The notes under the pieces: generated by a model | Seen by the model: only the letters and a program-made list of their open reading frames with translations | Database searches by the model: none | What the model was told of the DNA's origin: nothing | Part shown: piece after piece, positions 34,078-61,674 of the stretch | Position numbering within the stretch: the first letter of the stretch is position 1 | Layout: every line of letters starts with the position of its first letter | From: Membranipora membranacea | Taxonomy: Eukaryota; Bryozoa; Gymnolaemata; Cheilostomatida; Membraniporidae | DNA length: 64,000 bases | Direction of reading: 5' to 3' | Assembly: GCA_914767715.1 (NCBI GenBank) | Contig: OU612072.1 | Span: 19,654,001-19,718,000, forward strand | Position numbers and translations under genes: made by a program

Positions 34078-36509
34078 ATGGATAAGTCTGAAATAAGTGA
34101 CATTATTCAAACAAACTTAAACATATCAGTAAAACAAGAACAGTTACAGGCTAAATATTCATATTTTGTTGAACAAAAAGATGCCATATTCATTGCTCCA
34201 ACCGGTTTTGGGAAATCTCTCCTATACTTAGCAGCACCCTTCCTGTATGACCATGATACTGAGTTCTACAAACCCCAGCAGGCACAATCAAACAAGGAGG
34301 TAAGTGACAAGAACCAACTTTCCCTGAATGTTAACAATGATATTTATTTTTAGTTTTTTTAGTCTCTCTCGCTCATTCAATACATACAATAGTCTACATA
34401 ATATGTTGAATTCTTGGTGCCTTGGCACCTAGCTCACTAACACTATCATCTCCATACTTGCCAACCTGTACGCATAAAGCATTTGTAAACGCTTATTTGA
34501 CACTAATTGAGTTTTAAACGCAAAACGCTAGTTGTACTCATTTATGGTTTTCCAAACGCCTGTTCATCTAATTAGGCAATCAAAAACGCATCTTTATCTT
34601 TAGTGTTTACTTGGTTGTCATGGTTAAATAATAGTCTAAAAATCTGGTATTGGCTGCAGAAAACCATGATGTTGATTTACAGTTGACTTTTTACCTGTCC
34701 AAGTTTTGCATGAGCCAAATTGCAACTTTTCTTCAATGAGACACAACATAACTAGTAATCCATTGTAGAATATGGTGGTTCTGCCAACTTCAACTTTTCT
34801 TTAATCAGAGTAACAAAGTTGTCTACCTCCTTGTTGGGGTGAGATAACTCAGATCTCCTGCCCCAGTGTTTCAAGGGCAAACCAAGGAGGATGGGCAAAC
34901 AGGGTTTCAAATAGCCTGTCTTGTCCAGACAGGCTAGGTTACAAACAACTTCTCATTTATTATTAGCAGATTGCACCTTACAACGCAAAGGGAAAAAGAC
35001 TAATGTTGAGTGATCTACTCCTACGCTAATAAGGACTACTTACTGTGATAATAGCATTTTTTGGGGCGTTTTCTGGTCATTTGAGGCACCCTGGAGTTTT
35101 GTAAGCATTTTGCAAATTTTTGTACTCATTTTGGAAAAATTAGGTTGGCAAGTCTGCATCTCTTCCACCAAGGTACCATCCATTATTCCATTTGATGGCT
35201 TCCAGAATATAGCCATTGACTTTGTATAGAATTTGTACTCTAGCATACTATACATATGCAAGTGAGATGGACTACATCATCATTTCATTTGTATCCAAGG
35301 CCCTCAACAACCTCACCTCAGTGCTCAAAATTCTGAAATTGTCGACATCATACTTTTTGGTGTATTTGAATTTGATTGCAGACACTTTGTTCAAATAGTC
35401 GTTCTCCACATTGATCTTGATTTGAACCACCATTTTTGTTTCATAGGATTCTGTGGGCTCATGTGTGAGGAGATTGACTTATGTGTCAAGCTCAACTGTT
35501 CAGAAGGTTAGTTATGACTGTAATGGTTTAGTCTAGATGACAAACTCCTTCAATGTTTTAGTACAGAGGTTCATCAATTTTTTGCTCAGGATGCATGATC
35601 ACAAAGGACTAAAAATGAATAAGATCCAAATATTTAATTTAGTCATCTTTTTATGTCTCATCAATGACTGAATAAGGTATTAAGTTAGTCTGAACACAGG
35701 CATTTTTAGTTGCTAGGGCTCAGGTGGTTGCCGGTTGTTGATGATTTAAAAATATGGTGATAGGTTAATATTAATACTGTTGGGTTGAGATACTGTGGCC
35801 CCTAAATTACAGTGGTGACACTAGTTGGAACCTTCACAGCCCAATGGGCCCGAGGTCTGAAACCAGAAATAAAATGTAGACCTTTGGCCAACCTTGCATA
35901 TTTTGTTGATAAGCATTAAAAGCATTTGAGTTTTTGGTTGGATATTTTTCACTGAATCTAGTGATCCATACATGTCATATTTTCTAGCAAACATCCAACA
36001 AGATTGAATTATCTATTTTTTTTTCCAGAATGCACCATCCCAATTCCTAATTGTAATGCAATTGGTGTCGATGATTGAGGATGCCATCACGAACATTCAT
36101 AAGAACTTACCCAAGCTCTCGGCAATTCATCTCTCTGCCGCCACTACACATATGTATAGGGCTGCTGTGTTCATATTTACGAGCCCGGAAAGTATTCTCG
36201 ATGGCAGTGGGAGAAAGGTGTTACAGGAGGGTTTGAATGTGAAGACGGTCTTCATCGACGAATTCCATATCGTTGAGCAATGGTAGTTATTCTTTCTCAT
36301 AATACAGTATTAAAATATTATCCCCATGATATATCATAAATAAACAAACTATATGACCTCCGTCCGCTTCCGGAGTGAAAATGATGAAAATCCAGAGAGA
36401 AGCCAGCTTGAAGAAGCATTAAAATGTTGACATATTACTTAGATTTTGTAAATTGAGAAGAAAAAACATAGGGCCATAATTAAATCATAATAACTGACAA
36501 TTCTCAGGC

Positions 36510-36560
36510 CTAGTCTAAGTGGCGCAGGGAGTTAGCGGCACCAGCTATCAAACTCCTATC
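36510..36560 (+). repeat. Foldback MITE family, partial copy (RecQ intron)
   Basis: CTAGTCTAAGTGGCGCAGGG then AGTTAGCGGCACCAGCTATC: one arm of the family, with part of the stem (GCTCAGACTCCAA) deleted. Confidence 0.6.
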
Positions 36561-37091
36561 CCCATATTCAATATAATTCAAACCCTCTCAAATGTTATGT
36601 ATATGATGGCAGCTATGGGGGTCAATGGAGCTGAGAAAAACCATACATAGGCAACTGATGTCATGTCATCTGGTTTAAAGTGGAAAACTAATATTACTGG
36701 GACCATTTAAATATACGGCACTTGGATTAAATTTCAATGCCAACAGTATTTTCCCCGAGCCAGACACTCAAAGTAAATAAAGACATGTACATGTGCTTAC
36801 ATTCATATTTCATGTTATTTTAGGGGTGCTGAGAAAGGAAAGGATGATTCATTTCGGAGTGCATATGGCAGCTTGCACTCCTTTCTGAAGAGTGTGCCTT
36901 TCGTTTGTATGTCAGCCACTGCCTCTGATGATACCATACACCATGTCAACACATCACTTAACATCGTGCCGAATATTTTCAAAGTTTCTATCAAAATAAG
37001 AATATAATGTAAGTCAAATTATTTTAAGTGTGTATATTTTTAATGCCTTAATTCGGAGCATCTAGCTAGTTCCACACGTGTATGTTAATAT

Positions 37092-37208
37092 CTGCTCAGA
37101 CTCCAAGGCGCAGGGAGTTACATGCGCCAGCTTTCAAACTATCAAACAGAGGAGTTTGATAGTTGGAGCAGGTAACTCCCTGTGCCTTGGAATCTGAGCA
37201 CTTAGACT
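37092..37208. repeat. Foldback MITE family, copy with both arms (RecQ intron)
   Basis: The left arm starts GCTCAGACTCCAAGGCGCAG. The right arm ends CTGTGCCTTGGAATCTGAGC then ACTTAGACTA. The arms pair over nearly the whole length, around AAACTATCAAACAGAGGAGT. Confidence 0.8.
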
Positions 37209-38115
37209 ATTCCCAGTGTGTTGCAATGCTTTCCTGTTCAATTTATAAGTACTGACACTGGCCAACGCTTGCAGTTGCTCTCAGCCCGGTGATGTTCAGT
37301 TCAGCTAGTGATGGTGTCAACCTTGCGGTTGTCAACGTCTCAATTCAGCGTCATTTTCCTGAGAAAAACACAAGTTGAAGTCTTATTCATTCTAGATTTT
37401 TTGTTTCATTTGTAGCTATCACACAGTGAGAGTTACAGGGAACATTCTTGCAGATTTCAAATGGTTGTGTGACCTGATTAATTCTAGACCGCTAGACTTT
37501 CCTAGAATGATGATATTCTTTACAAACATCAACACCTTAGTGGATGCTTACCAGTACATCACACTTAACACTCATCAACCTGTAGGTCCTACCACCGCCA
37601 GAGTGGTTATGTACCACTTAATAACAGACAGCAACATCAAGTCAAGAATATTGGCTGACCTTGGCAATACATCTGGCCATATTAAAGTGTCTCTCTGTTC
37701 TAGCAGTCTATCAATGGGGCTCAATTTGAGAAACATTGCGTTTCTCCAGGAATCTGGTCGCGCTTCTAGGGAGTGCGAAGTTGTTGCACATTCAATAGTA
37801 TTAACATATCCCAAATGGACGTAAACTAGATCAGACCATGAAGACATATGTGCAAGGAAAGTCTTGCCTTCGTAAATGTTTACTTGCTCATTTTGGTTGT
37901 GACAAACCCTCTGAGCAACAGGCTTGCTGTGATGTTTGTGACCCTGATATCTTATGCCATGTAAAAACCCAGATTGTAAAGTCTTATGATAGCTCATTCA
38001 CAGACAGTTTTAGTGACTCGCTATCAGTAGCATCATTTGGAGATATCAGCTGCTCCAGTTCAGAGGGTGATTAGTATTAAGTGCCCTTACTCAGAACATT
38101 GATTCATATTACTAA

Positions 38116-38893
38116 GTCAGGTATATGCATACCATTCCAGGGCCGTATTCTCTGTGTGTTTTTATTACTGTCTCAGGTATATGCATACCATTCCAGGGCC
38201 GTATTCTCTGTGTTTTTTATTACTGTCCCAGGTATACGCATACCATTCCCGGGCCGTATTCTCTGTGTGTTTTTATTACTGTCTCAGGTATATGCATACC
38301 ATTCCAGGGCCGTATTCTCTGTGTTTTTTATTACTGTCTCAGGTATATGCATACCATTCCAGGGCCGTATTCTCTGTGTTTTTTATTACTGTCTCAGGTA
38401 TATGCATACCATTCCAGGGCCGTATTCTCTGTGTTTTTTATTACTGTCTCAGGTTTATGCATACCATTCCAGGACCGTTTTCTCTGCGTTTTTTCTAACT
38501 GTCTCAGGTATATGCATACCATTCCAGGGCCGTATTCTCTGTGTTTTTTATTACTGTCTCAGGTATACGCATACCATTCCCGGGCCGTATTCTCTGTGTG
38601 TTTTTATTACTGTCTCAGGTATATGCATACCATTCCAGGGCCGTATTCTCTGTGTTTTTTATTACTGTCTCAGGTTTATGCATACCATTCCAGGACCGTA
38701 TTCTCTGCGTTTTTTCTAACTGTCTCAGGTATATGCATACCATTCCAGGGCTGTATTCTCTGTGTTTTTTATTACTGTCTCGGGTATATGCATACCATTC
38801 CAAGGCCGTATTCTCTGTGTTTCTTATTACTGTCTCAGGTATATGCATACCATTCCATGGCCGTATTCTCTGTGTTTTTTATTAATGTCTCAA
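38116..38893 (+). repeat. 55/56-bp minisatellite, 14 copies
   Basis: The monomer is GGTATATGCATACCATTCCA, GGGCCGTATTCTCTGTGTTT, then TTTATTACTGTCTCA. It starts about 40 bp after the stop codon of the RecQ-like gene. Copies are 55 bp, or 56 bp where the T-run is longer. Because no copy carries a stop in any plus frame, long ORFs (up to 261 codons) appear in three frames; these are repeat artefacts. Confidence 0.92.
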
Positions 38894-39799: not shown

Positions 39800-42700
39800 C
39801 TACTTGTACAAGCTTTTGCTGTTTAAACCAGCCATCAAATTTTTACATATGTTATAACATGACAGGGAATGAAATCGATTTGCTGAATATTTGGTGAGAC
39901 CTGCATCTTTATAGGCAGCCACAAGTAATTTTAGATCCTTATGTTCTTGTGACGTTTTATTCTTTCCACTGGTGGGATGGTACTCTATTTCTTTATCTAA
40001 AGTTGACACAATCTGGTTTATTCTGTTGTAGCCTTTAGATATGCGATCCACATGAGCCTGGGTATAATCGCCTCTGTAACATTTCAGATTGGCTTTGAAT
40101 CTCCTGTTTTCATGCTCCATCTACAAAATAGAACTAGGCTCAAAACTAGTGCTCAGACGTCAAATCAAAAGGAGTTACTGGTGTTCGCTTCAAGCTCTCC
40201 CTCGGTTTGATAGCGAACGCTAGTAACTCCTCAAATTTGAAGTCTGGGCACTTAGACTAGCTCAAAGGCTTGAATGAGCTGGATAATGAAATAGGTGATA
40301 TTCCATCTGTTGGTGTGTAACAATCTCTAATTTGCTGTGTGACAACGACATACATACCACTAGGTACCTTGCTGATTTACGAATAGCGTCATAGGCCTTG
40401 TACACGAGAGTTGTCTTTGATTGACATGCATGAATTGAAGCTTTCAATATCAAGTGAACTAGTCTGAATGCTCAGACTTCAAGGCGGATGGAGTTTCTGG
40501 AGCCAACTATGAAACTCCACAAGCGCCACAAACTCCCTCCATCTTGGAATCTGATCCGACTGTAATTAGTACCAATTTTATTTATTGATGGTCATACCTG
40601 CAAGTCTAGAGGTATGTTGGTATCGCCTTGACTGCTTCTGTTGTAAAACCTGTTCCGTATCAACCTTTGGCTTAGGTGTCTGGGCAACACATTCGTTTGG
40701 ATGATAGTTTCCAGGAGTCCGCAGCCATACTTAAAACTGCCATTTCCCTTGAAGATGATGTAGAAAAACCTAAAGATATTACAAAACACACATTGGTATG
40801 ATTGGTATGATAAAATTCAAATTGTTGACAAAGATATGATTCAGAAACTTGAGTGCAGCCACCTGTAACTTTAGTATGGAGTTGTCATGAATGCGCACTG
40901 GTATTTATGATCTGATAAGTTGCGAGTGGATAGGTCAGATGTCTTCGTTTCTAATCGAATGAAAAACACTCCGATTGAGTCAACTGTCCAAAAATTCATT
41001 CCGCAACATGATTGATCGCTGTTTATTATCATGGTAGTCAATGACCAAGAAATTTAATTGTGAGAAAAAGTGTAATTCATTGACTAGGCTGCTGCTGCAG
41101 TTTAGTGTTTAATATCTCAGCTCAATTATGATGATGATTTTCTTTATGTGTATATGAGAGTCTAGTTCACATGCTGTGAACCCTGCGTCTCCTCGTCTTA
41201 CTACTGAATTGAACCTTTCGAAATTCAACCTTCATTTGCTAAACCTTGTTACTTGGCTATATTGTGTCCTTACTTGTAGAGGAGCATGATCCGTTCACCA
41301 TTTCCTACTTTAATGGCACGATTATGGATTGTCCGTAAAATCCCAAGGGTTATCACCGCACAAGTGTAGTTGTATATGCCATCTAAATCGTGAGATTCCT
41401 GGGCTATGTTGGGATGAAACTGAAGATGATGTTTCCTTAGATTCTTCTCACTAGCGTATTTCTTCTTACAGTGTCTGCATCTGTTAACACTAAAACAATG
41501 CTTAGCATGTACATGTATATGTACTAGAGTCTAGTTCTTGCACTTCCAGGTGTAGACAATCTGTGACGACCCGATTCAATGTCACAGACTCTCAGCTGCA
41601 AACAGCTCACAAAAAACACTTGGAAAACAACCGGATAAACTGCACGATAAAGGCCCTTTTTTCATGAACACTACTCTTGATTGTTTGGGTTTTCTGAGTC
41701 TATGTATTTTGGCTAGGTTGTCAATGTAACCTCAACAAAATTAACATGCAGTTTTGATATCTAAATCTGCGATGTACAAGTCTAAGTGCTCAGGATCCAA
41801 GCCTCAGGGCGTTAGTTGCGCCACTAACTCCCTGAGCCTTGGATCCTGAGCACTTAGACTAGCGATGCGCCTGCTTGCATCTGTACCTTAAATCAGATGT
41901 ATCTGCTGCAGCAGGAATGGTGAGGTCCACATATTCTTCAATGATCTTCTCTGCCACTTTCTGTATTAAATCCTCTGGAAACTCTTTGCTATCAGTGAGA
42001 AGTGATGAGGCGCTTACAACTCCTTGGCAACAACTGAAACAATGCATAATCAATGGATCAATATAATGACATCTACGGGAATGACATAGTCAGTAAATGC
42101 TCTGTAAATGCCATAGAGTGAGCGCTCAGAAGGAGGTAGTTGTGACGCCCTAGCAGTCTGAGCTATAATATGGAAACATGTTGTTCAGCTGAATGTCTGG
42201 TCATATTTTTTGAATGTTGCATTGTTGAGTATGAGCTAGTCAAGATTCACATCTCCTTCATCACTTCTCAAAACTCACCTGTGATAATGTAAGACTTGAA
42301 TACTTTATCAAAAAGTGCTGCGCAGTCGTAATATCTGGACGTAGGATCGGATGTGACGTTCTTCGCATTGATGAAGTTTTTGGCGTGATTCAGCGTCCCC
42401 ATTGAATGTCCAGAGTCTGTCTGTAAAATAATAAAAAGTCTCTGTAGACCTTCATCAATGATTGTCCAATGGGTCCACCTTAGCATGCAAGGGTTTTGCT
42501 CAGAATTCTGATATTACTGCGGCTCACAGTTTCTCTTAGTCTTAAGATCTCAGACTCCAAGGCGCATGAAGTTGGTCTAATATCCGATATCCAATATCCG
42601 ATCAGTAGTTTGCATTGATGTACACTGATACAACTGAACTAAAAGTAGAGTTAATTGATGATATCTTTGAAACTGGTCAGCCTTGCACTGATATTACATG

Positions 42701-45700
42701 TACATTTGATTACATGGTAGTTAGGACATGAATAATAGAAATGGACTGTTTTGAAAAGCGACTCCGCTAACTCAGTGTGTAGTTTAACAGCCCAATTTAC
42801 AAAAAAAGAACCTAAGTTGTATCTAACAGTTATCTAATTTTAGCTGCGGTCAATACCTTTGTTTTCACCGGTGCTTAGATGGTGCTAAGCTGGTACTTAG
42901 CTTGAGCTAGTGCTGTGCTGACAGGGGACCTTAGATGACATGGCCTTGGCCTTCTAGTATACATGAAAGCGAAGGCATGTCACTCAAAACATGCCAGGAG
43001 GTACATGGGTCAGGGGATTCAGGCTAAGATGACACCAAAGAAGAAAGTTCAATGGGAAGGCAACACTGGTGGAGCTCTAGTCTAAGTGCTCAGACTCCAA
43101 GGTGCAGGGAGTTACTGGCGCCAGCTATCAGAGAGGAGTTGGAGCTGGCACCAGTAACTCCCTGCGCCTTGGAGTCTGAGCACTTAGACTAGTGTAGCTC
43201 TAAAAAATTTAGCACTTAGTTAGCCCTTAATAAGCACATCAGTGTAAACAAGACTAATAATTATTTTACTCACATGGAAGAGCACTTTATATGCTAGTTT
43301 AAGAAAATTCATCTGTACATGAAAATCAGCACAAGCCATTACGAGGCCTTCAAGTCTATCTACTGGAAACTCTCCATCACATTGAGAACTTATTACTTGC
43401 TGTCCGCGCTCGAATGACAAGTAGTCTCCTACAACAATCAATATTATTTATTTATTTATAGAGGTTTTCTCAGAAGTGTACAAATAACAAAAATAATTCT
43501 ATTATAGGTAACTTGTTGACCTCTGAAAACAGCAAAAAATCATATTATGCTTACTACCAAAGTTAAACACAGAGTTACCCTATAGGAGTTTAATTTAGCT
43601 AGAGTTTAATTTCGGGACCTGGTACTAAATTTCACTAGTACTAAAATCTCCATCTGATTGCAAGGCAGACACTTAGACCACTACACCACGCTAGCTTGCA
43701 TGCTTGGGTAGGGTGTATTCCTGTATAACAGTACATTGTTTATGAAACTATGGTGAGTGAGTTTAATTTAAGATACACTAAATTTCCCAACCTAAGCAAC
43801 AATGTGAAAAGCGAATCCTAAATGCCGGAAAACTAAACTCCTATAGGGTAATTATAATTAATAACATGTGGCAATATTAGTGCCATCAACAAAACCATCA
43901 GCAACTCCATAACACCCATTTGCACCAACGCTTAAACCATCAACGAAAAGATTGCAACTCTACATTTGCTGTATTGGCCACAGGCCTTTCTAATACTAAT
44001 GCCAAGCTGAGAGTTGAAGCGCCTGAAGCAACCCATATATATATATTATATTAAAAAATCGTACCAGTTAGTAAGAAACCTACCAATACAGAGCTTGTGC
44101 TGTAGAGTGTCACCCTCTCTGACATCTACCAATGCGTGGTATTGCTGAAGACATACAAGAAGTTCTTCTTTAACGTTCTCGTTCTGCATGAGAACTCCGA
44201 GGTTGACCTGCAATAACAATATAAAATGATGTCTGAGTAAGGAAAGAAAGCAACCTTTAAGTCCGTTTCAACGTTATCCTCATGCTGATGAACAGTTGGT
44301 AGTGCGGAGCGATATCACATCGGTCCAGATTCGCTAAAATTTTATGATCACCAGTAGAGTAGAGTGATATGATTCTGCAATGGATTTCCGTTTATAAAAA
44401 AATAACTTTCAATGTGAATTGGACTGTATCGTAAACTCTTACATACAGTATATCAAGGCGTTGAACGTTTAACAAATTTGGAGAGGCTCAGAGTATAAGT
44501 GCTCAGTCCTGCAGTCTGATGTTTAGAAGAGGAACAGCCTCTATCGGCTAAAATTGCTTAGAGGGCACTCTATGGGAACGTTGAGGGCAGGGGTTTGAAT
44601 GGGAACAGGCGTTTGAAAGGAGTATAATGCACATCATACAACAATTAATTAACGATTAATCGAGAATAAGGGATGGGAGTTCTAATATTGAATGCGAAAA
44701 ACACATGTTGGAAATGGCATTCAATCTGAAGATCAACATAGGTCTGAAATTCGGTAGATGAGATGAGTATCAACCTAAAAATCATTTTGAAACTGCGTAA
44801 AATACTAAGTTTTGCAAATACATTGTCATAAAAGATTGATAATCAAGGAAGTTTGAAATTACTGCAAAACCGAATAAATCGAAATATTGCCCTTTAGAAT
44901 ATCTTTCAAAAATATGTTATCATGCAGCATTAGCTTCAATTGCTGTGAACTGAATGTTTACTTTTATGTTCTATATTTAATAAGTACCATTGGGGTAGGC
45001 TTTTTCATGAGATGAGAGTATTGATGTTCTTCTGGCTCGAGAGTTAGAGACGATATTCCTGGACATTCTTGTTGCAGGATTCTCTTGACGTTATCGACCA
45101 TGAGCCGTCGAAGTTGCTGCTCATCTTCAGCTTTAGCAATTACATCACCTGGTTTAATACTGTCTATCGGTATAGCTGGAGGTTTTTTTTCTGGAACTTT
45201 TACACGTTCCTGCACCGCCATGGCTTGCACCATGTGGTGCATCTTATTCGATACCTTAGCCGACTCTCTTCGAGGACGTGTTAAAATGTCAACGTTATCA
45301 AAGACGATACTGTATTCAATGCCCTCAGCGGTCCACTTTCCAAGATCAAAAATGTGTCGTTTTCCAAGCGCATTAATTTTAGGAAATATAGATTGATGGG
45401 TCGTACAGTCATATAGTTTTGCCAGTCGATTCATGGAGGCATCTTTCATGCCTCCATCTGTGAACATGAGCGAGTAATAAGTTCGCACAGCTGAAAGTTT
45501 GTTACTATACACACCTAAGCACTTGGCGATTACGGTTGTTATTGCTGGAATCAATGAGTTGTTTGTTTTGCTCAGATTACTGTTGTTGGGGCGTAAACAC
45601 GCAGCACTGATTATTCCGGTGAGATGGGGGAGCCGATCTTGAAATTCTTCCCAGCATCCCCACCAATTAATTTGCACAATAAAGTCTTTACAGTCATGTA

Positions 45701-46683
45701 GAATTGTATCGGGAGACAAATCTGCTCAGATGCTCAAACTGATATCTGATAATCAAAAATAGTGGTAAATTACTGCACTAAAATAAAACTTATAGCCCCT
45801 GTACAGTTTTAGTACTAGAACTTTGCTCGGTGTAGTGTTAGTGGCACTTTATCATCAAAGTAATATTGCATCGTGAATATGTGAGAGTTCCATTGCCAGC
45901 CGAATCAACTCACCTTGAAACTGGTATAGTTCAACACGGCCTCTCGGATGGGAAACATCCTCCTCCGCTCCATACAACCAAGGAAATCGAGGTCATGTTT
46001 CCTTATTTTAGAAATAACTATTGCTTCTGAGGAAGAAAGTTTCTGAAAAACAAAAGGGTCAGTTGCGAGCTTTAGGTTATGAACCTCTCAAGAATAACAT
46101 TAATTAGTTGAGTTCTGCAGCATACCGATAAACACTGTGAGAAGACAGGTTAGCTATATTGTTATGGGTAGTGTGCAACTGTGGCCCTAACTAAAGCCTT
46201 CGAACAGAAACTGACCAAGTCATCAACCTGTCTTACAACTTCTCTGACACTACACATGTACACCTTCTTCCCAGGTTGACATTTTAAAGACATAGTGAAG
46301 TGAATCACATACAAATAAACCGCTGTTACTTTACAACAGTTAAATATATAAGCTCCAAAATAAAATTATAATAGATTGCTAAGTGTGTGTGGTCTAAGGG
46401 TTCTTACTGAGTATTCAGAATGCTCACCATATCAATTTTATCATTTGAAGTATCTAGATCTAAAAGTTTAGGGGTTCTATTGAGAGTTTTGTTGAGACGA
46501 GGGGTAGCTGAGTTTATGTCTACTGGCTTCAAGACCTGAGCTTTAGGTGTGGGTGTCGGTCGAGGTATTGCAGAACGTGATGCATGTATAGGAGGAGTGA
46601 CTGTAGAGGTAGCAGAAAGTGGAGGTGTACGTTGTGCAATACTTCCAGCTGTATACTCCTGTAAACCTGTGTATGTGTCCATC
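39800..46683 (-). CDS. DUF6589-family protein, main exons (C2H2 finger plus RNase-H-like conserved block)
   Basis: Minus-strand exons: 46683-46428, 46042-45914, 45721-44988, 44217-44094, 43428-43274, 42420-42279, 42022-41887, 41480-41274, 40769-40598 and 40120-39800. All phases agree except at 45914/45721. Conserved DUF6589 blocks appear in order: IVFDNVDILTRPRRES, GDYLSFERGQQ, DRLEGLVMACADFHVQMNFL, SMGTLNHAKNFINAKNV, DGIYNYTCAVITLGILRTIH, GNGERIMLLYKFF, LIRNRFYNRSSQGDTNIPLD and MEHENRRFKANLK. A C2H2 finger (C-x2-C-x12-H-x4-H, starting CRHCKKKYASEK) is formed across the 41887/41480 junction. The first exons are Thr/Pro/Ser-rich. No stop or frameshift was seen. The role of DUF6589 is not established; the family is multi-copy and element-like. 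Introns hold several foldback MITEs. Confidence 0.8.
40146..40260. repeat. Foldback MITE family, diverged copy (DUF6589 intron)
   Basis: CTAGTGCTCAGACG on the left and CTGGGCACTTAGACTAG on the right, with AGGAGTTACTGG/CTAGTAACTCCT inside. It lies in the intron between 40598 and 40120. Confidence 0.7.
40459..40562. repeat. Foldback MITE family, diverged copy (same DUF6589 intron)
   Basis: CTAGTCTGAATGCTCAGACT at the left, and CTCCATCTTGGAATCTGA at the right. The stem contains GGAGTTTCTGG/CCACAAACTCC. Confidence 0.65.
41779..41862. repeat. Foldback MITE family, short near-perfect copy (DUF6589 intron)
   Basis: AGTCTAAGTGCTCAGGATCC and GGATCCTGAGCACTTAGACT form a near-perfect inverted repeat of about 38 bp per arm with a loop of only a few bases. 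It sits 25 bp after the splice donor at 41886. Confidence 0.85.
43077..43192. repeat. Foldback MITE family, best-preserved copy (DUF6589 intron)
   Basis: CTAGTCTAAGTGCTCAGACT, CCAAGGTGCAGGGAGTTACT and GGCGCCAGC on the left, mirrored to GAGTCTGAGCACTTAGACTA on the right. Arms are about 50 bp, around CTATCAGAGAGGAG. It defines the family termini (CTAGTCTAAG). No convincing target duplication was found. Confidence 0.88.
43575..43851. repeat. MITE-like element with 18-bp terminal inverted repeats and tRNA-like interior
   Basis: TTACCCTATAGGAGTTTA at the left is matched by TAAACTCCTATAGGGTAA at the right (one mismatch). On the minus strand, 43700-43640 reads GCTAGCGTGGTGTAGTGGTC then TAAGTGTCTGCCTTGCAATC, which resembles the 5' half of a tRNA with an A box. 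The element may have captured a SINE, or be built on one. It lies in the DUF6589 intron 43429-44093. Confidence 0.65.
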
Positions 46684-47536
46684 CTACATACAAAAAAGAT
46701 CATGTTAAAAATATTAACAGCTGTAATGGGAATTAACCATACCGGTAAGATAAAGGTCTGGAGGGTTATTTTGGCCTGCCTGTCTCTGAAAATGTGATAT
46801 CATCAGATAATCACTTTTCACTTGTGACAACATTATTTTGATCATGTATATCAGACACACAATAGTATTCAAGTATGCTAAAGTTTAATTGATAGGATAA
46901 AAAAAAAAGTTTTTTCCTCAAATGTACACTCTACATTTAGAGTGGGCTCAGGAGCATTGGTTTCAGTTGAACCAGACATGACATTGTCACATACACTGTA
47001 TGTGACACGCCTAGGTGCATGACTCTACATGAAGTTAGGCATTGTATATTGCACTGTCATGGTTGCCATGGTCTTAATCTGATTAATTGTTATACTCTTC
47101 CGCATTTACTTCCATTTTTTGCACATTTAATTACCATCTAAATGCGGAGGTTGGCCATCAAATAAATGACGTATCATCCCACCTGTTTCTATTTTTACGA
47201 CCTATTTATACAGGTCAGTATAAAGAACAGTGGTTTTTGCTCTGAAGATTCAGTTACAACTTGGCGTTGCAATTTATCAGTTGCCTGGGGCATTTGCCCC
47301 AGGGTGTAGTTCAGTAATAAAATCATCAAACTGCCGAAAAACTGCATTCAGTATTATAAAGTAATCTCATATGAACTCTGCCAGCAGTGAACTGTCGTGA
47401 TCTTTCTCGATCCGACAACATTATGGGTAGGCCCTATGTGTATTGCTCAATGTAGAGGTTTGTTTGTACGCTAAGCATTCAGTTTTGTTGACAAAAGATC
47501 ATGTTAAGTTAAATTTTCTTCCTTCATTAGCGATTA
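46684..47536. other. DUF6589 intron sequence left of Harbinger-2
   Basis: AT-rich with an A-run near 46900. No ORF or repeat structure worth calling. With 52758-52874 it forms the intron that received the Harbinger-2 insertion. Confidence 0.45.
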
Positions 47537-47559
47537 AGGGCAGAGCACACTATAACGTA
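47537..47559 (+). repeat. Harbinger-2 left terminal inverted repeat
   Basis: AGGGCAGAGCACACTATAAC then GTA, directly after TTA. Identical over 23 bp to the reverse complement of the right end. Confidence 0.93.
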
Positions 47560-47838
47560 TCGTAGGCTGTAGCACGTAATAGTTACGGCGTGCATCAGTA
47601 ATCCGTAACGCACTGATGAACACACTTCAACGTTTCCCGGCGTAATGAAATGTGTTTACAAACACAATGCATGTGCATGTTAACCAATCAAATGCTTTGT
47701 TGTGAAACACAGTGTCCTTGACATTCTTGTGTCCTTGACATTTTCATCATTATATCATCATTTCCCACCAAAACAAAACACTATAGAAGCAATTTTACAA
47801 GAATATTAAGTTGACAGTCAGCAGATTACAACCACATC

Positions 47839-50015
47839 ATGAACAGAGAGAGGAGAATTAGATTACTGACACTAGGGCATCTTTATCTAAAAGCCCAGAG
47901 AAGAAATAGAGTGGGAAAGAGAAGGTACTGGGTTCATCCAGTCAACAGACAGAGACAAACATTAGGGGCATGGAACACCTGTCTGAGTGAAATGAGAAGC
48001 TCTTTCCCTGAAAAACATAGGCAAGCATTTAGAATGGACATTGAGTGCTTCAATGAGCTGCTAGGCCATGTGCAGGAAAGCATAGTGAAAAAGGACACAT
48101 TCTTCAGGAAGGCTATATCTGCTGAGCAGAGACTAGGTGTGACACTGTATTATTTAGCCACTGGAGACAGCTTCTCAACTCTAGCCCTCCTATTTAGACT
48201 TGGTACTTCTACTATTAGAGAGATTGTGTTCAAGACATCCAAGGCCCTGTGGGAGTGTCTAAGAAGCATATATTTAGCCACTCCCAGCACACCAGATGAG
48301 TGGAAAAAGATATCTCAGGAGTTCGAAAGAACATGGAACTTTCCTCACTGCCTAGGTGCTATTGACGGAAAGCACTGCTCGATACAATGCCCTCCGAACT
48401 CAGGCTCACAATACTTCAATTATAAGAAGTTCTTCAGTGTGGTGCTGCTTGGAGTATGTGATGCCAACTACAGATTTGTATATGTGGATGTCGGCACGTC
48501 AGGAAGGTGGTCAGATGGTGGAACATTTGATAACTGTAGCCTCAATGAAGCTGTGAAGGGGAACACGCTGAATATACCGGCTGACATTCCGCTACCAGGT
48601 ATAAACTTGTGATTTTTATGAAGAGTTTCAGTTTTGATAAAAAAGATAACATCAACATAAGGGACGGGTAATATCACCCTTTGAAATATATATACAATGC
48701 CATGTGACCAAAAAATTGTGTTTTAGTTAGAGCTGCATAATGGCTCGATATAGCACACACTCGTAGACATGTGCATCGGACTGTATCTATGATCATATGA
48801 TAGTTTAGTAATATTAGGGATTGACATACGGCTTAATATAGTAAATTTGAATTGATGTCACCTCAATTGAAATTGATGATGTACACAAAAAACTCAGAGA
48901 ACTATGAGAAGCAGGCTTGTCAGGGCAGGGACCAGCCTGGTCTGATTGAGTTATCCGATAAGAGGCGATATCAGGTCTTGATTTCCAGGTAAACTCTGCA
49001 TGCATTTCTGTAACAATGAGCTTGATTTATTTTATAGGATCAGATGGTAACGAAGGATCTCCATATACCTTCATTGGTGATGAAGCATTCCCCCTGAAGA
49101 CCTGGCTGATGAGACCAATTCCTTGACAGTCCGCCAAAGAGCACAATCAGAAGGTGTACAACTATAGACTGAGTAGAGCCAGGAGAACAATAGAGAATAC
49201 TTTTGGTATCATGGTGGCTCGATGGAGAGTACTCAAAAGGTATTATTATCATTATCAGGTTTTTGTTTAACTAAGCAACATCAACGAGCTTGATTTTTAA
49301 AACTTTCTATTAGATATTGCTGACTGAACTCCAAATGACTTTTTAATGTCTTTGCCTATCCCTTGATAATAAACATTAAATTCTAAGCGTACATAAACAT
49401 GATAATGAAAATTAGTCCTACGGGAGAAAATTGGCCGCTAATTATGCTATTTGCAATCATTGAAAGAAGTGAAATTAGCTGCAAGCCAACAGTTATTCTG
49501 CATCATAAGCCCCCATCTCAGCTGACTGAGATTGGTGCTGACTAACATGAAGTCACCCAATACTTAGTTAAACTAAACTCTAGCTAATAATTTCTCCTAA
49601 AAAAAGGATAGTGTATATGATTATGCTCCTGCAATAACCTGTTTAGTAAGCAGATAGATTGATTATTGTCCGTCATGCTAGTATACCAAACTTTCTCATA
49701 TGTTGCAGGTCTCTACACATGTCAATAGACCACGCAAACGATGTAATATTAGCCTGCTGTGTGCTGCACAACTACATGAGGGAGAAGTCGCCACAGATGT
49801 ATGCACCTCCAGGCTTCGCTGACAGCCTTGACCCTAATGGAGACGTTGTTGAGGGTGCGTGGCGAGCAGAGCATCCCTTGCAGCCCAACAATGTGAGAGG
49901 ATGCCCACGTCGACCAACTCGGACAGCTACTGATGTTAGGGATAGACTGGTTAGGTACTTCAGTGGTGCTGGATCTCTGCCATGGCAAGATGCCTATGTC
50001 AGACGGACAAGATAG
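47839..50015 (+). pseudogene. PIF/Harbinger transposase of Harbinger-2, one nonsense codon
   Basis: Three exons in phase: 47839-48598 (ends CCAG|GTATAA), 49038-49239 (after TTTATAG, ends AAAAG|GTATTA) and 49709-50015 (after TGTTGCAG). They total 422 codons, matching the length of the Harbinger-1 protein. ATG 47839 starts a basic N-terminus. Catalytic blocks present: GAIDGKHCSIQCP, VDVGTSGRWSDGGTF, FIGDEAFPLKTWLMRP and [17 protein letters not shown] with the Glu. An in-frame TGA at 49124-49126 follows WLMRPIP. It cuts the protein before the conserved Glu, so the copy is dead unless read through. All other codons and splice sites are preserved, suggesting fairly recent inactivation. Confidence 0.9.
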
Positions 50016-50605
50016 ACATTGACACTAGTTGACTGATTTGGCAAAACGATCACATATGGAAAAGAGCTCTCAATTAAATGTTATGTAATGTCATATAGTT
50101 TGTACAAATGCTATTTTCAAAACTAATAGAGTATTTTATCCATTTTAACTAAACGAGTTGATAGATTTCTTTCGATAAATTTTTTTATCTATATCTATTT
50201 CCAGAGGTGGCGAGGGATATATATACAATTTACAAGAAATATTGTATGATACGAAATTGAGATATTTTTGGTATGATTTAAAAGTTTAATTATTCAACGG
50301 AACAAAAAATTTTGAGGTTTGGTAAAAATTTTGGTATTTTTATATATATATATATATATTATGAAGTAAGGATATATACAATTACAAGAAAAAAATAGTG
50401 TATGATTAAAAATAAGTATGATTAAAAATACTTGTATGGTAAGAGTATGACAATGCAAGGTATGATTTGAGGTTGAGATTGAGTTGAGATTCGGTAAGTG
50501 CAGTAATGTGTAAAATGTGTAAGGTAAAGTAACTACAAAACGGAGTTGATTGACAGCGATATGGACATCTAAAATTTTATGTGTTAAAATATGGATATGA
50601 TGAGG

Positions 50606-52486
50606 TTACGTTAAGAGATTTAGTGACTGCATATATAAGCCTGAGCTAGATGACTGGCTCTGGTTTGGATTTACTGGGGGATTAAACCTTCGATCGAAGA
50701 TGACCTGTCTTATCTCTTTCATAACGACCGCACGTTCATATGGATCACTGAATAAAGTCACATGCCCAGCTATCTCTTCACCAAAACTTACACACTCTTC
50801 AGGTTTTCTTTCTGTGGCCTTCTCTCTTTCCTCAATACATAATTCCAGCTCCCTGGCTAGAAGCTTTTCAATATGGCCCTCATCAGTTGTCTTGGTCTTC
50901 TTTGTTTGCGGCGTCGAGAACTGAGGATTTATTCTTTTGCCAGGAGTTTTTGCAAAGGTCTCTACATGTGAGCCTGCTGAGGAGGGAGGGCGGGGAAACT
51001 CATCATCAGAAAAAATGCACGCTGCTGATGCTGGTGACTTTGGCTCCATGAACACAGCAGCTGCACTCTCTGTTCCAACCATACTGTTCTCCTTTTCCTG
51101 TCCGACTATACTAGATGTTGAGCTCAGGTTAGATGTAGTGCTACAAAACATACACAAGAAATTTTACAGTGATGGTTTTCTGAAGGCTTCAAGTATCATG
51201 TCATTGTATGAATAAATTTAGCTTGTGCTTTACAAATGCTTGTTATGAATATTTTAAGGTGTTAAACCAGGAAGCTTGTTCAAGACCTACTGGTTAAACC
51301 CTATATGAGATTATCATTAATATATAAAATAATGTTGATGGTCTGATTACTGAATTCAATCAGGTTATAGTGCACTTAAATTGGTTATCATGATCGAAAG
51401 CTGCAATTAAGCAGAGTATGATTGTCATTGTAAGTGCTCAGACTCCAAATGGTTGATTAAGCTGTCATTTATCACCCTGAACCAAAGGGGATTTAAGTAT
51501 CTAACGACATAAGGATAAAAGTTTACAATTTTAGATATGAAAATATTTACCTCCCCCTGCTCAAATATGGGTTTAGCCATTGCAGTACATTGCAGTACAT
51601 GAAGTCTGGTGCCTAAGAGGCTCCAGCTCCTGACCGTGTGATCTCCTCGTGTGCTTTCTTCTTACGGACATACTGGTCTCTCACATATCGCCACTTCTGT
51701 TTCACTGTTTTACCTGAAAGTAGAAAGTCAATGTCAGAATGTTCAATCAGTGATGAAAAAAGAATAAAGTTCACCATCAATTTTTAGTAAGTCAAACGTC
51801 TTAAGTCATCGTCTCTCTGTCACATTGTGAGGCATTTGATAGTGTGTAGTATCAGCATTGCATTTGTACACAGCAGAGCTGAGCAGTAAAATTACTATAA
51901 TTCAAACCCAATTTATACAATTAGCATGCTCTCATATCCTACCCTCCCTAGTCAAACCATTCTGTCTCATTGTCACATTGTGAGGCATTTGATATTGTCT
52001 AGTCTAGTCTAGTATCAGCATTGCATTTGTTTGGGCTATGAGTACTTCATGGTTTAAGAATTATACAGCATATTTGTACACAACAGAGCTGAGCACTAAA
52101 ATTACTATAATTCAAACCCAGTTTACATAAATAGTATACCCTCACATAACAATAATTTCTTCTGAAATGTTCAATTGGTATGAGTGTGTATGATGTTATC
52201 TGAGTCAATGAGTAAAAGTCTTTTACTCCTTGTCTGAGTTATGACCATCAAGGATATAGAAATAATGTAGAGAAGGTGTGATTCTAGCTGATTCTAGTGA
52301 CTCTGCTAGAACAGCTACTCTGAGAGAGTACATACCAGGCTCAGCATCAGTCAGCTCAAGCTTCCCAGCAATCTCATTCCAAGCATTCCTCTTCATAATC
52401 TCATCCTTGTACAGCTTTGATTTCATGTTATACAGGCATTCATGGTCTCTGACCAACTCAATAAGTTTCTCAACATCAAGAGACAT
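50606..52486 (-). pseudogene. MADF-type DNA-binding protein of Harbinger-2, one nonsense codon
   Basis: Three minus-strand exons in phase: 52486-52336 (ATG 52486; LDVEKLIELVRDHECLYNMK, RNAWNEIAGKLELTDAEPG), 51713-51551 (KTVKQKWRYVRDQYVRKKKA, RSGAGAS, then FMYCNVLQWLNPYLSR) and 51140-50606 (Ser-rich linker, charged helix ARELELCIEEREKATE, tail). Together they give about 282 codons. Exons 1 and 2 make a complete MADF fold. TAG at 51613-51615 interrupts it after RSGAGAS, where Lys is usual in related proteins, a single-base change. The final exon has a BESS-like C-terminal helix (ERAVVMKEIRQVIFDRRF). It is convergent with the nuclease gene, with 590 bp between stop codons. Confidence 0.85.
51822..52132 (+). 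repeat. Duplicated segment in the first MADF intron of Harbinger-2
   Basis: GTCACATTGTGAGGCATTTG, AGTATCAGCATTGCATTTGT and TACTATAATTCAAACCCA occur twice (51.82-51.93 kb and 51.97-52.13 kb). The second copy has an extra insertion of about 45 bp. It is a simple tandem duplication with later divergence. Confidence 0.75.
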
Positions 52487-52731
52487 TATCAATATATTCT
52501 TTGGAAGTTCTGCTCAAAATTTACTAGTCACTAACTTAATTTATTCTATCTGCTTTCCCGCTGAAATGACTTAATCCAGTCAGTCAATCACGTGGTATAA
52601 ATTGACCAATGACACTCCGACGCTTGCGTCGTCAACCCACTAGTCATGGGAATGATGCGTTTCAACGATGCGGAGCTTATCCGGTCATTGACCTCTTTCC
52701 GCAAAGCAATTGCGCTTACGTTACGTGTGAT

Positions 52732-52754
52732 TACGTTATAGTGTGCTCTGCCCT
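52732..52754 (-). repeat. Harbinger-2 right terminal inverted repeat
   Basis: TACGTTATAGTGTGCTCTGC then CCT, directly followed by the TTA target duplication. Confidence 0.93.
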
Positions 52755-52874
52755 TTAGTCTATGCTATATGTCCACCATACACATCCGTAGTATCAAATG
52801 GAGTTTAATAGTTGGCCAAAACCTGAAATTTCATGGTCAAAATAGCTTGATTAAAGATTGTAACTGTAACTCAC

Positions 52875-53830
52875 AATTTCCGTCCTCTGTTGTTTACAAC
52901 GGAACCAAACGCCCTTGCCACAGCTCTGGCAGCCAGTCCACCTGTCACGTTTTCATCAAACTCTCGCTTGATAACATCTAATACCCGCGATCTTGGAACC
53001 GTGCTGTCTGTCCGATGCCTGAATCTTGACTGCAGGAAAACCTTGAATAAAGATACAGTAATAATGTGTAACAATACTCAAAGGAACATGGACCAATCAT
53101 TGAGGCCATAAAATATTTGGTACTTTTCTCGACTGCACCATCCATCACATCCATCACAAGTGTGCGTGGAGTTTATACGCCAAACCCCTAACATCTATCA
53201 CAGTTTTTAATATTGAAATGAATCCGAAATGCTGAATTGAATATTTAAGTTTGATAAATCATTGGCGAGTGAACTGCATTACAAAGTCTAGCTGCTTGCA
53301 TAGCCTTACTATTAAATTTATTTGTAGTTAGTAAGTAGCAGTAAGCAAGTAGTAGGTATAAGTCTATGGTTGATACTAACTAAAATTTCTATCCCTTAAC
53401 AGCTTAAATTCCCCAATGGTAGGGGATCAACGGCCGACAAGTAATCAATTACATCTCTGTAAAATGGTCATTATTGAAGAGATGTGAGCTTGTAGCCTAT
53501 GGATTTTTTACATATGTCACATTGTTCCACCAACATTCTATGAGTTTCATGGTTCCCGCTAGTTTAAGTGCTCAGCATACAAGGCTACATCCTTCCGTAT
53601 GAATCTGCAGTCTGAGTACTTAGACTAGGACTAGGAAGGAAGGGTGAATGCTGCTACAAATTGCAATGTTGAACAAACTAAACCATAGGCATTGAAGTGA
53701 GTTCACAATTCTACTTACAACTAGAGCGGCCAGCTTAGTGTGTTTTTGATGAGGGCTCTCTCCCGATGAACCAGCAACAGTGCGTTTAACACCTCTGGGT
53801 ATTTTTGATGGACTTTTCTCAAGAATCCGC
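52875..53830 (-). CDS. DUF6589 gene, 5' exons beyond the Harbinger-2 insertion
   Basis: Two minus-strand exons: 53830-53719 (GCAG before it, GTT|GTAAGT after it; basic, KSPSKIPRGVKRTVAG) and 53041-52875 (ends AAATT|GTGAGT). The second encodes VPRSRVLDVIKREFDENVTG and LAARAVARAFGSVVNNRGRK, probably a small helical DNA-binding-like domain, perhaps RFX-like (weak). Its trailing TT joins with the first base of the exon at 46683 to make Leu before the ATG of that exon, exactly in phase. I therefore infer one gene whose intron (46684-52874) now contains Harbinger-2. The true start lies further upstream and was not found. The whole protein would be about 880 residues. Confidence 0.6.
53559..53628. 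repeat. Foldback MITE family, short copy (DUF6589 5' intron)
   Basis: CTAGTTTAAGTGCTCAGCAT on the left and CAGTCTGAGTACTTAGACTA on the right, with a diverged centre. Located in the intron 53042-53718. Confidence 0.7.
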
Positions 53831-54107
53831 CTGCATTGGAGTAGAAATAAGAACAAACTCTGTTAATTTAGCTGTTGATCATATGCAGTTGTTCAAAGAG
53901 TTCTACTTGTGTAATCAAGGAGTAATGATGGTGTAATGATCTCGGTAAAAACTTCCAGAATTTTACTGACTGACCTGACTAGGTTTTGCAGTAGGGCTAA
54001 ATATACCAGTGCAAGTGTAAAAACTAGGTTATCCAAGGAGTTAAAAGACTTCTTGAATCAATTCCCGAACAATTAGGTAGGCTAAACCTTGGCTAGTATG
54101 CCGCACA

Positions 54108-54429
54108 GCATAAGGCCACGTGACTTTGATATAGCCTGTGATTTTTGTCAGTGGGTGGGGGTGGGAGGGGGAACCATCAATGTAATCTCATGATCCTTTT
54201 TCGATGTTTTTTTTTTCAATTTTGTGTGGGTATCTATATATATCTATGTCTATGTATGTCTATGTATGTCTATGTCTTTATATATAGATACCCACACAAA
54301 ACACATCGAAAAAGTATCATGAGATTACATTGATGGTTCCCCCCTATACTCATTCTTCTCTTCTCTTCTCGCCCACCCCCACCCACTGACAAAAATCACA
54401 GGCTATATCAAAGTCACGTGGCCTTATGC
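54108..54429. mobile_element. Long foldback (palindromic) element, about 320 bp
   Basis: The left arm GCATAAGGCCACGTGACTTT then GATATAGCC is mirrored at the right end as GGCTATATCAAAGTCACGTG then GCCTTATGC. Inner arms CATCAATGTAATCTCATGAT and GTGTGGGTATCTATATATA are also mirrored. The centre is a TCTATGTATG repeat. A GGTGGGGGTGGGAGGGGG tract in one arm pairs only partly. No target duplication is clear. Confidence 0.8.
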
Positions 54430-54611
54430 CGTATAGTCTATGAAAAATCTACGGCGTAGATTTTTCATAGCTTAAGTTAAGCTTAAAGTTGGAAATTTAA
54501 TGTCTTGGGATGTCTTCCTCTCGATGCTAGATTGATATTGATGCCAATAAATTAGTAGAGTTCTGAAGTGAAGGGGTGTTTTGATCATCCACCGACTAGT
54601 GAGGTTAGGTA

Positions 54612-57889: not shown

Positions 57890-58275
57890 ATTGGGGTTTG
57901 GGGTTGGCAGCCTGAGGTATGTGAGCCAAATTTGGGGTTTGGGGGTCAGCTTTTGGGGTTTAGGGGTCAGGTTCGGGGTCAATATTTGGGGTTTGCAGTT
58001 CGCAGTTTGGGGTTTGCGGCCTACACTTTGGGGTTCACGGCCTACTTTCTGGGGTTTGGGGGTCATAAACGAGGGTTTGGGATTTAAGGGTCAGGGTTTG
58101 GGGGTCATTGTTTGGGGTTTGCAGTTCGCACTTTGGGGTTTGCAGCATGAATGAAGTTTGGGGTTTGCAGCTCACATTTTGGGGTTTGTAGCTTGAAGTT
58201 TTGGGTTAACAGCTGGCAGCTTAGGGTTTTTGGGGTCAAAAGCGGATTCAGGGGTCAACAGTTGGGGTTCAACAG
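57890..58275 (+). repeat. G-rich 21-bp minisatellite
   Basis: Degenerate 21-bp units built on TTTGGGGTTTGCAGTTCGCA, with variants TTTGGGGTTTGCGGCCTACA and TTTGGGGTTTGCAGCTCACA. About 15-18 units. Because 21 is a multiple of three, two plus frames stay open with a seven-residue period (LGFAVRS-like); I take these as artefacts. Runs of GGGG spaced by a few bases could form G-quadruplexes on the plus strand. Confidence 0.8.
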
Positions 58276-58500
58276 GACGGCATGTTGCCAAAGATGGATC
58301 AACATTATGAGGTTTAAACTTTGTTTGATGAGACAATCATTCCTGTAAAAATTGCGAGGGAACTTGAGCGCTTCTGTTATTACAATTTTAACAGTTCAAC
58401 TCAAATGGATAACACTTTTATTATGAGAATGAACTTGTATCGAGTATAAAACTGGTCGAATGAAGATAAAACCATGAGATTATAACATTTTTATGTTTAG

Positions 58501-59067
58501 GACTGTACGTAAAAAAAGGAGAAGTCATAAAAGAAGTGGATCTTGAAACAGAGATCCATATAGAGAGAGTTAAGACCATGATATCGTCACTAGGCGCTAA
58601 CAAAGAAAAGGAGACAGCAGTTGAAAGGGTAACAGGTATGTTAACAGCACCCTTTGTTTACATTTAAGATGGCAGTCAAGGAAAAGGTTATTACTTGTTG
58701 AGCATATTATCCTGTTATCACTAGCAAGTAGGTAATTATCACTTTTGCAACTTAGGGACTCAGCTGGTGCATAACTGAGGTATTCTTTATAACAGGATGT
58801 GCCTCTGCACTATCAGAAATAAAAGATGTCATGGTATCAAGCAGACGGACACCCTATAAAACAAAGACATCGACAACTGCAGATCTTAAACAAGCGGTAA
58901 CAGCAATAAACAAAACAAAACCCTGGAAGTTCGCCAAAAGAGAATGTGCAGTTAAGGCAACAACCTTAAGAATAGACATGTCAGTAACATTGAGGGAGCG
59001 AGTAAGACAGCTTATACTGAACCAGTTGGATTTCAGAACTTTACGTGAGTCTTCTATTCCTGTGTAA
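58501..59067 (+). pseudogene. DUF6589-family C-terminal fragment, copy 2
   Basis: Two plus-strand exons join in phase: 58501-58635 (after TTTATGTTTAG; ends ACAG|GTATGT) and 58796-59067 (after TTATAACAG; ends TAG). VDLETEIHIERVKTMISSLG then ANKEKETAVERVTG corresponds to the DUF6589 block 'DL.MEH.NR..K.....GANK...A..R..K', the same position as MEHENRRFKANLK in copy 1. Exon 2 continues CASALSEIKDVMVSSRRTPY and a basic tail with KTKPWKFAKREC. The body of the domain is not found upstream, where the G-rich repeat begins, so this is a fragment. It is tail-to-tail with the RecQ-like copy 2, about 240 bp apart. Confidence 0.6.
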
Positions 59068-59303
59068 TAGACAACAAAAACCCTTGAGTGGGGGAACGTC
59101 AGATATTCCCTAGCGTTATTCTTTCAATGAGAATGTATACTGAAACAAAAAAGCCATTCTTGATCACGTATCAATTAATCATGGAAGTTGTGTCCACTTG
59201 GCTTATGAAGGGACAAATCAAAGATAGATAGATAAAAAACTTGCTCTGTGCAACTTTGATCACAAATGTACACTACCCTAACAATATTTACAGAATGACA
59301 TAC

Positions 59304-61581
59304 CTCACGTGACATGGAGCACTTGCTACAACAGGATGCACCTCCTGATTCAGTATCACCTGCAGCTGATCGCTGATCCCCATACTGTCCATAAAGGTAC
59401 ACCTAAGAAAAAAGATGAGAGTAATATCATCAATGATAATTTGGGAATATGACATGATTTTATACAGTAATAAATTAATTATAAAGACGAATGCTATATA
59501 TAACATATTGCCATGCATCCCTGACTATTTATCAACTATCAATATTTTCATATGGGCGCTGTAGGTCTAAATGAATGTTAGACAATTTATAAGAGAATAA
59601 TGGTTTGCTATGAACTCTTTACACTTACCCTGGGGCTTTCAGCATTGATGAGCTTTTTCATCTCTTCAGGAGATTTTCCAAGCTCTAAATTGTTATAGTG
59701 TAATTTGACTATGCATTTTCTTCCGTCACGGCCACCTCTACTGATCTGTTGAACAAACTCAGGAAGAGAGCCAGCTGGCTGAACGAATATGACTTGCCTT
59801 ATGTCTGGAATGTTAACTCCGATACCAAATGCCGTGCTGGCGATGATAACTCTGTGTCTGTAACAAAAATTTAGGTGTGTCATGAAGACTGAATTTATGA
59901 TTTTGTTGACCCTTTTAATACCTGTTATGTTGTGTTTAACAAAATAGTTTTGAAATAGTGAACAGAACATACCTGCTGTCTGGTCTCTGTAACTCTTTGA
60001 TGATAAAATCTTGAGTTGAACTCTCCATCTGGCCGTGGAATTGGACGACTAGTTTAGATGAGAGAGTTTTAGTGCTGCCATGGTACAATGATTTTTTTCA
60101 AGATTCCTTGTCAGGAAGCATGTCATTGGGGTAATGAGAGTATGGCAAGTAAATATTATTGTTTTGGGAAATTCTATGAGTTGATTTTTCAAGTCATTTA
60201 CAAGAGGGGTTAATATATCACGCAGGGCTGTTTCGTTTTGATGAGATTAAAGGTAAATGCCAAAAAATCGAGTAAAGTTATGTGGAATGGTTATTAATGT
60301 AGGGGTATTTAGCATCAAGGATTTCGTTATTGAGTGTAGTTTTTCGTCAGCCACAGTTGCACTCAGGGCAAGGACTACAGGGGTGCAATATGATAAACGA
60401 CATACAGCAGCTCCGAGTGCTCCAAAGGCTTTTCTGAATGATTTTCCCCTGCAAAATAGGTAGAAGGACCTGATATTGAAGGTAGTAGAATATCGACAAT
60501 CATGAACCAACAGCTGATTCTTTGATGTTGTATTGAACAGTAGAAAAATTGTCAGAGAACAATTTGCACCTGCTTTAATTTTGTATTGTTTGTGGTTAGA
60601 GCTTTCAAATAGAGTTTCTCCCACCAATGGACAAGGGCTTGAACATTTGACCTCGACAGGGTTTGAACCTGAACAGAAACTCCAGCAGTAACCAACAAAC
60701 AACATCAGTAAACCAAAAGTAGCCGATAGCAGTTATCAAACTTAAAAGGTACTGCACCAATCCATCACAAGATGGCATTCATCGACAGCAACAACTCCTA
60801 CACATATTCTATTATCATCTAGGAGGCTTAAAAGCTCGCTTGTGTGCTCTGGCAGCGTGATGAAGTACTGTACTGTAGTGAGGTCAGGTAAAACAGTTCT
60901 GATGCAAGTAATACTTACCACATTGCCTACTTCCAATGACTTTTAGAATTACGCACCTCGTACGATTCCCCATTACATGTACTAGAATACCTGTATGTAA
61001 CTACATATCATCCCACACGATGGCATGCTGAATAGCTTGTGTAATACACTGTAATATATATATATATATAATCTCCGTGCTACAACGCACTGGAAAATGA
61101 CCTGACTGCACCTACTTTTGCTGAAATTACCATTTCCGCATACATATACTCCTTTACTTTTCAGCTTGCATAACTGATCAGCAATCAGTGCCTTTGTTGG
61201 TAGAATGATAATTATAGGTAAATTCTTCATGAATGGCAGCAGCTGTAATATAAGTGGTACGTTTCATGCAATTGTCCACAAAGTACTATCTATCACCAGC
61301 TGGCTTAGTCGATGTATGTACCATATAAAACAGTATTGTTTACATCACTTACCATGAGTCATATTATACTCATATAGGGTATGCTTTCAATTAAAAAAAT
61401 GACAGTCCCTCTAACGCCTTCATTTGTCCATTGAAACTTACCCAAAATATGAGTGATTTGCCAAGCCCTGTTGGCACACGCACAATAGTATCCTTTCTCT
61501 GAGCTATTACACTTTCTAGAGCCTCCAACTGGTATGGTCGCAGACCAGTGATACTAAACTCCTCACCTGCAGTCTGCTCAG
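59304..61581 (-). pseudogene. RecQ-like helicase gene, copy 2 (several lesions)
   Basis: Minus-strand exons 61581-61442, 61242-61131, 60872-60758, 60448-59973, 59857-59629 and 59402-59304. Motif 0/I: GLRPYQLEALESVIAQ, VRVPTGLGKSLIFW. Ia: IIILPTKALIADQL. Ib-like: FITLPEH. II: VVAVDECHLVMDW. III: LALSATVADE. IV region: LIEFPKTII. V: RVIIASTAFGIGVNIPDIRQ. VI: EFVQQISRGGRDGR. The C-terminus has GASCCSKCSMSRE, a short RecQ zinc-like motif. Lesions lie only in exon 4: TAA at 60247-60249, a one-base loss in a T-run after motif IV, and a TGA where Trp is likely. Adding one base restores the phase to the next exon. Motifs differ strongly from copy 1, so the two are old paralogues. Confidence 0.82.
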
Positions 61582-61674
61582 CTGTTAAAAACAAGGTTTT
61601 ACTCAGGCCAATATATGAGCCCTACAGCTACACAGATCAAGGACTGAGCACAGGTCACAAATGTGTGTTTAGGT

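Follow-up and report, generated by a model that had tools for sequence, protein, structure and literature searches.

AcademH transposons have terminal inverted repeats, KolobokH generates a TTAA target duplication, and Helitrons have neither inverted ends nor a target duplication. Among the helicase domains named in PMC10799480 are those of AcademH, KolobokH, and Helitron; the same paper cites, by its title, a report of AcademH from animals and fungi (Kojima 2020, Mobile DNA 11:15). In PMC10045372, the length of Academ target duplications is tied to the encoded protein (9 or 10 bp for AcademH, with a helicase; 3 or 4 bp for AcademX, with a nuclease). KolobokH, from the Kolobok superfamily, is described as a DDD/E transposon carrying a RecQ helicase (PMC9587614), and an HUH nuclease is given for Helitron. 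Here, a 64,000-nucleotide stretch of the Membranipora membranacea genome (C8:19654001–19718000, hereafter the window) was analyzed, in which a RecQ-like helicase gene and a gene of the Pfam family DUF6589 form a pair twice, in mirror orientation. Exons and strands confirm that both pairs are tail-to-tail, and the helicases RecQ1 (pair 1) and RecQ2 (pair 2) differ in their motifs, both as claimed in an initial annotation made from the sequence alone. Each pair is, or was, very probably one autonomous DNA transposon of AcademH type.

Complete elements and their affinities

Elsewhere in the source genome, boundaries were set for three complete elements (10,013, 10,326, and 13,845 bp), each with both genes inside and each flanked by a perfect target duplication (10, 9, and 9 bp, respectively), with inverted ends that begin with TAG. 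The two shorter elements belong to family A, with copies on C6 and C7 that are 98.9% identical over the element and unrelated outside of it. The ends of family A, starting TAGACT, are TAGACTAAAC and, inverted, TAGACTGAAC, its target duplications are GCGTATGAT (9 bp) and GGCTTGTAGC (10 bp), and the 10,326-bp copy contains an insertion of ~300 bp. The longest element, from family B (C7:2196140–2209984), has inverted ends of ~110 bp and a 9-bp duplication, and family B copies on C10 and C6 are 98.9–99.4% identical over the parts compared; near-identical copies are thus present on different chromosomes. Over their first 20 bases, the inverted repeats match at 15 positions in family A and at all 20 in family B. 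A scan for TAG ends accompanied by a duplication of 9 or 10 bp, designed once those ends were known, was applied to ten genome regions and recovered exactly the three delimited elements. The left end of family A was found at 41 places in the genome, with 38 beginning at its first base and 32 sharing only the first 33–53 bases, as would be expected of short derivatives, judged from the ends alone. That the two genes might belong to separate elements with their own ends, an alternative raised in the initial annotation, is at odds with the complete copies, where common ends and target duplications enclose both genes.

The delimited elements of families A and B resemble AcademH in having a helicase gene inside the element, terminal inverted repeats, and perfect duplications of 9, 10, and 9 bp, a likeness by description. 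AcademX is the sister lineage of AcademH within Academ, but it combines duplications of 3 or 4 bp with a nuclease, whereas the elements here combine 9 or 10 bp with a helicase. KolobokH shares with them a RecQ helicase in a DDD/E transposon and was rejected because the duplications are 9–10 bp and of varied sequence, with no TTAA; Helitron, which likewise encodes a helicase, was rejected because inverted ends and target duplications are present in all three delimited elements. No joint mention of Academ and XPG was found in the literature searched. The elements are consequently filed as AcademH-type, an already described lineage, by likeness of description, and DUF6589 would then correspond to the Academ transposase. 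The initial annotation knew of no described element with this pair of genes; as a claim of novelty this does not stand, with AcademH (PMC10045372) and KolobokH (PMC9587614) in print.

Recurrent convergent pairing across the genome

A blind search of the source genome (339 Mb, 18 contigs) using PF20231 produced 19 matches that were merged to 15 DUF6589 loci, which include neither window pair, and a blind search using TIGR00614 produced at least 45 matches (45 of 142 candidates scored) at 25 RecQ loci, which include RecQ2 but not RecQ1. A RecQ match was within 10 kb of nine of the 15 DUF6589 loci, compared to ~0.02 expected, and all nine pairs were tail-to-tail with gaps of 1.0–3.6 kb. The DNA around all 15 loci was then read (20 kb each for ten loci; 7–10 kb, mostly on one side, for five), and tblastn added four loci with a convergent RecQ (C7:2.20 Mb, C10:11.06 Mb, C6:13.95 Mb, and C8:12.82 Mb), raising the paired loci to 13 of 15. 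Setting aside those nine pairs and RecQ2, 15 of the 25 RecQ loci had no DUF6589 neighbor in the blind search; of these, the one opened with wide flanks (C3:21299108) has a convergent DUF6589-like gene alongside. As copies within one family are not independent, pairs were also counted by groups based on DNA similarity; nine paired groups are distinct in DNA (families A to E, C2:6.46, C2:31.55, C3:21.30, and window pair 1) and all are convergent. The enrichment proposed as a check in the initial annotation is therefore present in the source genome, and its proposal that the two genes make up a DNA transposon, in which DUF6589 would probably supply the transposase and RecQ the helicase, is supported by the recurrent pairing together with the complete copies.

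Except for weak cross-matching among the helicases, RecQ1-like helicases pair with DUF6589 genes of the pair 1 type and RecQ2-like helicases with those of the other tail type; the differing motifs of the two window pairs therefore mark two lineages. Across loci, greater similarity in one gene broadly goes with greater similarity in the other, such that DUF6589 and RecQ have travelled together. Walker A, DE[CF]H, and motif-VI-like stretches are kept in the helicases at most loci where pieces were seen.

Several RecQ matches occur within ~125 kb of contig ends (C2:70657, C3:88046, C4:34971724–34978118, C6:124508, and C2:39508498), as does the unpaired DUF6589 locus at C3:32705, positions that subtelomeric helicase genes would also occupy.

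The DUF6589 protein and rival explanations

In an alignment of three DUF6589 proteins (window pair 1 and families A and B), DNVD, GD, ADFH, a C2H2 finger, and EH are invariant, with the window protein 33% identical to that of family A and 51% to that of family B. The conserved acidic residues are D/D/E-like and may correspond to the DDE residues of a transposase, with the finger before the E. A pattern scan of 12 loci detected the C2H2 finger in seven and the EH helix, which is split by an intron in window pair 1 and family B, in four. As a DDE transposase, the DUF6589 protein would bind the TAG-starting inverted ends, cut them, and join them to a target at positions staggered by 9 or 10 bp. 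The convergent RecQ-like helicase would serve to open the DNA at the ends or to aid repair and copying once the cut is made. We infer both the catalysis by DUF6589, for which the conserved residues make it a candidate, and the step of the helicase in transposition.

Several results weigh against an AcademH-type transposon with DUF6589 as its DDE transposase. Only three element copies were delimited, and ends were not found for families C, D, and E, the C3:32705 locus, or either window pair, where the best candidate end has two mismatches in a duplication of GATA repeats. No RecQ was found at two of the 15 DUF6589 loci (C3:32705 and C7:21.386 Mb), the latter an inverted duplicate of a paired locus in which similarity ends before RecQ. 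The C2H2 finger was not detected in five of the 12 loci scanned (C7:21.20 Mb and four RecQ2-type loci other than the window), and the motif set is therefore established for the RecQ1-type lineage only, on which the DDE reading of DUF6589 rests. A PDB search with the DUF6589 alignment returned 43 hits at E values of up to 10, most of them zinc fingers and none named transposase or RNase H. A single-sequence structure prediction of one DUF6589 exon, directed at an RNase-H fold, had a mean predicted local distance difference test score (pLDDT) of 36, which speaks neither for nor against that fold.

Beyond the source genome, the sequence collections covered were prokaryotic or viral. None of 7,999 candidates from a set of 5.8 billion proteins scored E ≤ 0.001 in one search with a crude splice of DUF6589 (residues 100–784); no match was confirmed among viral contigs for a DUF6589 exon, a RecQ2 exon, or the three-sequence DUF6589 alignment, nor among prokaryote genome contigs for the same alignment.

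Of the rival explanations, the one that survives best holds that the elements are a superfamily separate from Academ that gained its RecQ-type helicase and 9- to 10-bp duplications independently. It draws on the likeness to AcademH being one of description and not of transposase sequence, and on the lack of any mention of DUF6589, with or without RecQ, in the literature searched, but it is unlikely, as a helicase with 9- or 10-bp duplications is the very combination stated for AcademH in PMC10045372, and reports of AcademH come from animals and fungi (PMC10799480). Slightly less improbable, though still doubtful, is a reading in which DUF6589 acts as a DDE transposase whose second and third acidic residues flank a C2H2 finger, and forms, within one genome, two long-separated transposon lineages that each have their own RecQ type and may constitute a superfamily distinct from published Academ. 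It is very improbable that the host has domesticated pair 1 as a cellular unit of two genes: its DUF6589 exons retain open frames although no ends are detectable, and the pair is highly diverged from family B, but RecQ1 has a 13-residue gap, and inside the pair lie a Harbinger insertion of 5 kb and several palindromes resembling MITEs (miniature inverted-repeat transposable elements). Least probable of all, and rejected as contradicted by the delimited elements, is that the pairs are chance neighbors or one segmental duplication, since despite some loci being local duplicates (e.g., the inverted pair C7:21.36/C7:21.386 Mb, 99.5% identical over 11.9 kb) there are nine pairs compared to 0.02 expected, nine DNA-distinct and uniformly convergent groups, and target duplications at unrelated sites.

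The AcademH-type interpretation gives a Pfam family of unknown function a testable role as a transposase, and the near-identical complete elements with defined ends offer a system in which to assay what a RecQ helicase does in DNA transposition. It also serves as a warning for annotation, as a RecQ-like or DUF6589 gene in a genome of this kind may belong to a transposon. Nothing known is overturned.

The window pairs and neighboring repeats

RecQ1 (34072–38074, plus strand) consists of approximately six exon pieces that, when spliced, match DEAD (2.2e-11) and, weakly and below the cut-off, Helicase_C (0.0055). RecQ_Zn_bind scored 20.8 bits against the spliced pieces, below the 25-bit cut-off, and 25.6 bits against a lone exon, above it, and the match to the RecQ family model TIGR00614 (6e-17) was below the curated cut-off for that model. 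The gap in RecQ1, identified by eye, comprises 13 residues that precede the motif-VI-like stretch and are present in family B.

The core exons of the pair 1 DUF6589 gene, a probable DDE transposase, occupy 39800–46290 on the minus strand, based on PF20231 and the alignment with families A and B. The spliced exons, with splicing set by eye from GT/AG cues, match PF20231 at E = 1.6e-25, while no single exon has a PF20231 match. Probable upstream exons at 53829–53719 and 53026–52877 (minus strand) have open frames and splice cues without a domain match. The initial assignment of 39800–53830 to DUF6589 is upheld by the PF20231 match, but the span is not one continuous gene and is interrupted by a nested PIF/Harbinger transposon (47537–52754; this and the repeats below are given without strand) with 24-bp identical inverted ends, a TTA duplication, and an open reading frame (ORF; 47815–48612) that matches DDE_Tnp_4 (8.3e-12). 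As the ORF at 53026–52877 resembles, by eye, a family B ORF upstream of the transposase exons, the Harbinger element apparently sits in an intron of the DUF6589 gene. Another intron of this gene holds a 114-bp palindromic MITE (43078–43191) that has family-B-like ends (TAGTCTAAGTGCTCAGAC) and is flanked by a 9-bp duplication with one mismatch. With no recognizable ends, Harbinger and MITE-like insertions, and the gap in RecQ1, pair 1 looks like a relic.

Between the convergent genes of pair 1 is a tandem array of 14 copies of a 55-bp unit (38117–38892). Tandem direct repeats between convergent 3′ ends were also observed in family B (~230 bp), its C8 relative (208-bp copies), and the C3 element (~300 bp), on DNA stretches L028/L027, L037 (5739–6129), and L038 (5438–6025), with units that differ among elements. 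Palindromic repeats are located upstream of the pair 1 DUF6589 gene at 54105–54432 and 54438–54470.

Pair 2 was assigned to family D by DNA similarity. Its DUF6589 side (58279–59067, plus strand) begins where similarity to sister copies on C8 and C10 starts (~58279), just beyond the PF20231 domain, and continues into the C-terminal tail (58470–59064), with DNA that is 94–95% identical to both sister copies. The sister copies have the same tail directly downstream of a PF20231 match, which runs across stop codons, with introns or decay as the cause, and the window gene is therefore a C-terminal tail only. The DUF6589 assignment made initially for this gene accordingly holds for the tail shared with the sister copies and not for the domain, as PF20231 is absent and 58470–59064 has no Pfam match above the cut-off. 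RecQ2 (59291–61621, minus strand) matches DEAD (6.2e-15), WRN/RecQ chains in the PDB (best, 1.6e-25), and TIGR00614 (9.3e-38, below the curated cut-off for that model). Upstream of RecQ2, a 723-bp palindromic MITE (61675–62397) with identical 15-base ends and an 8-bp duplication (GTTTAGGT) has been inserted, past which the element resumes (62398–62632, 84.6% identical to the C8 copy). With its DUF6589 side cut off to the tail and no termini found, pair 2 also looks like a relic, and the two window pairs would be diverged, probably immobile relics of two lineages. Degenerate TTTGGGG-type repeats (57933–58244) directly precede the point at which the truncated pair 2 element begins.

Scans of the window for tRNA and Rfam families found nothing. 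Its intron-split genes, satellites, and transposons of eukaryotic type mark the window as eukaryotic. A second PIF/Harbinger-type transposase occurs at 24078–25899 (DDE_Tnp_4, 2.3e-33 for the ORF at 24934–25899), adjoined by an unexplained ORF on the minus strand (26511–27032). A satellite with a 141-bp unit is distributed in four blocks at 2678–6774, interrupted by a separate three-copy repeat, and a 100-bp satellite array spans 7400–10171, at the right edge of which an 18-base stretch (10136–10153, minus strand) is one mismatch from a family-B-like end.

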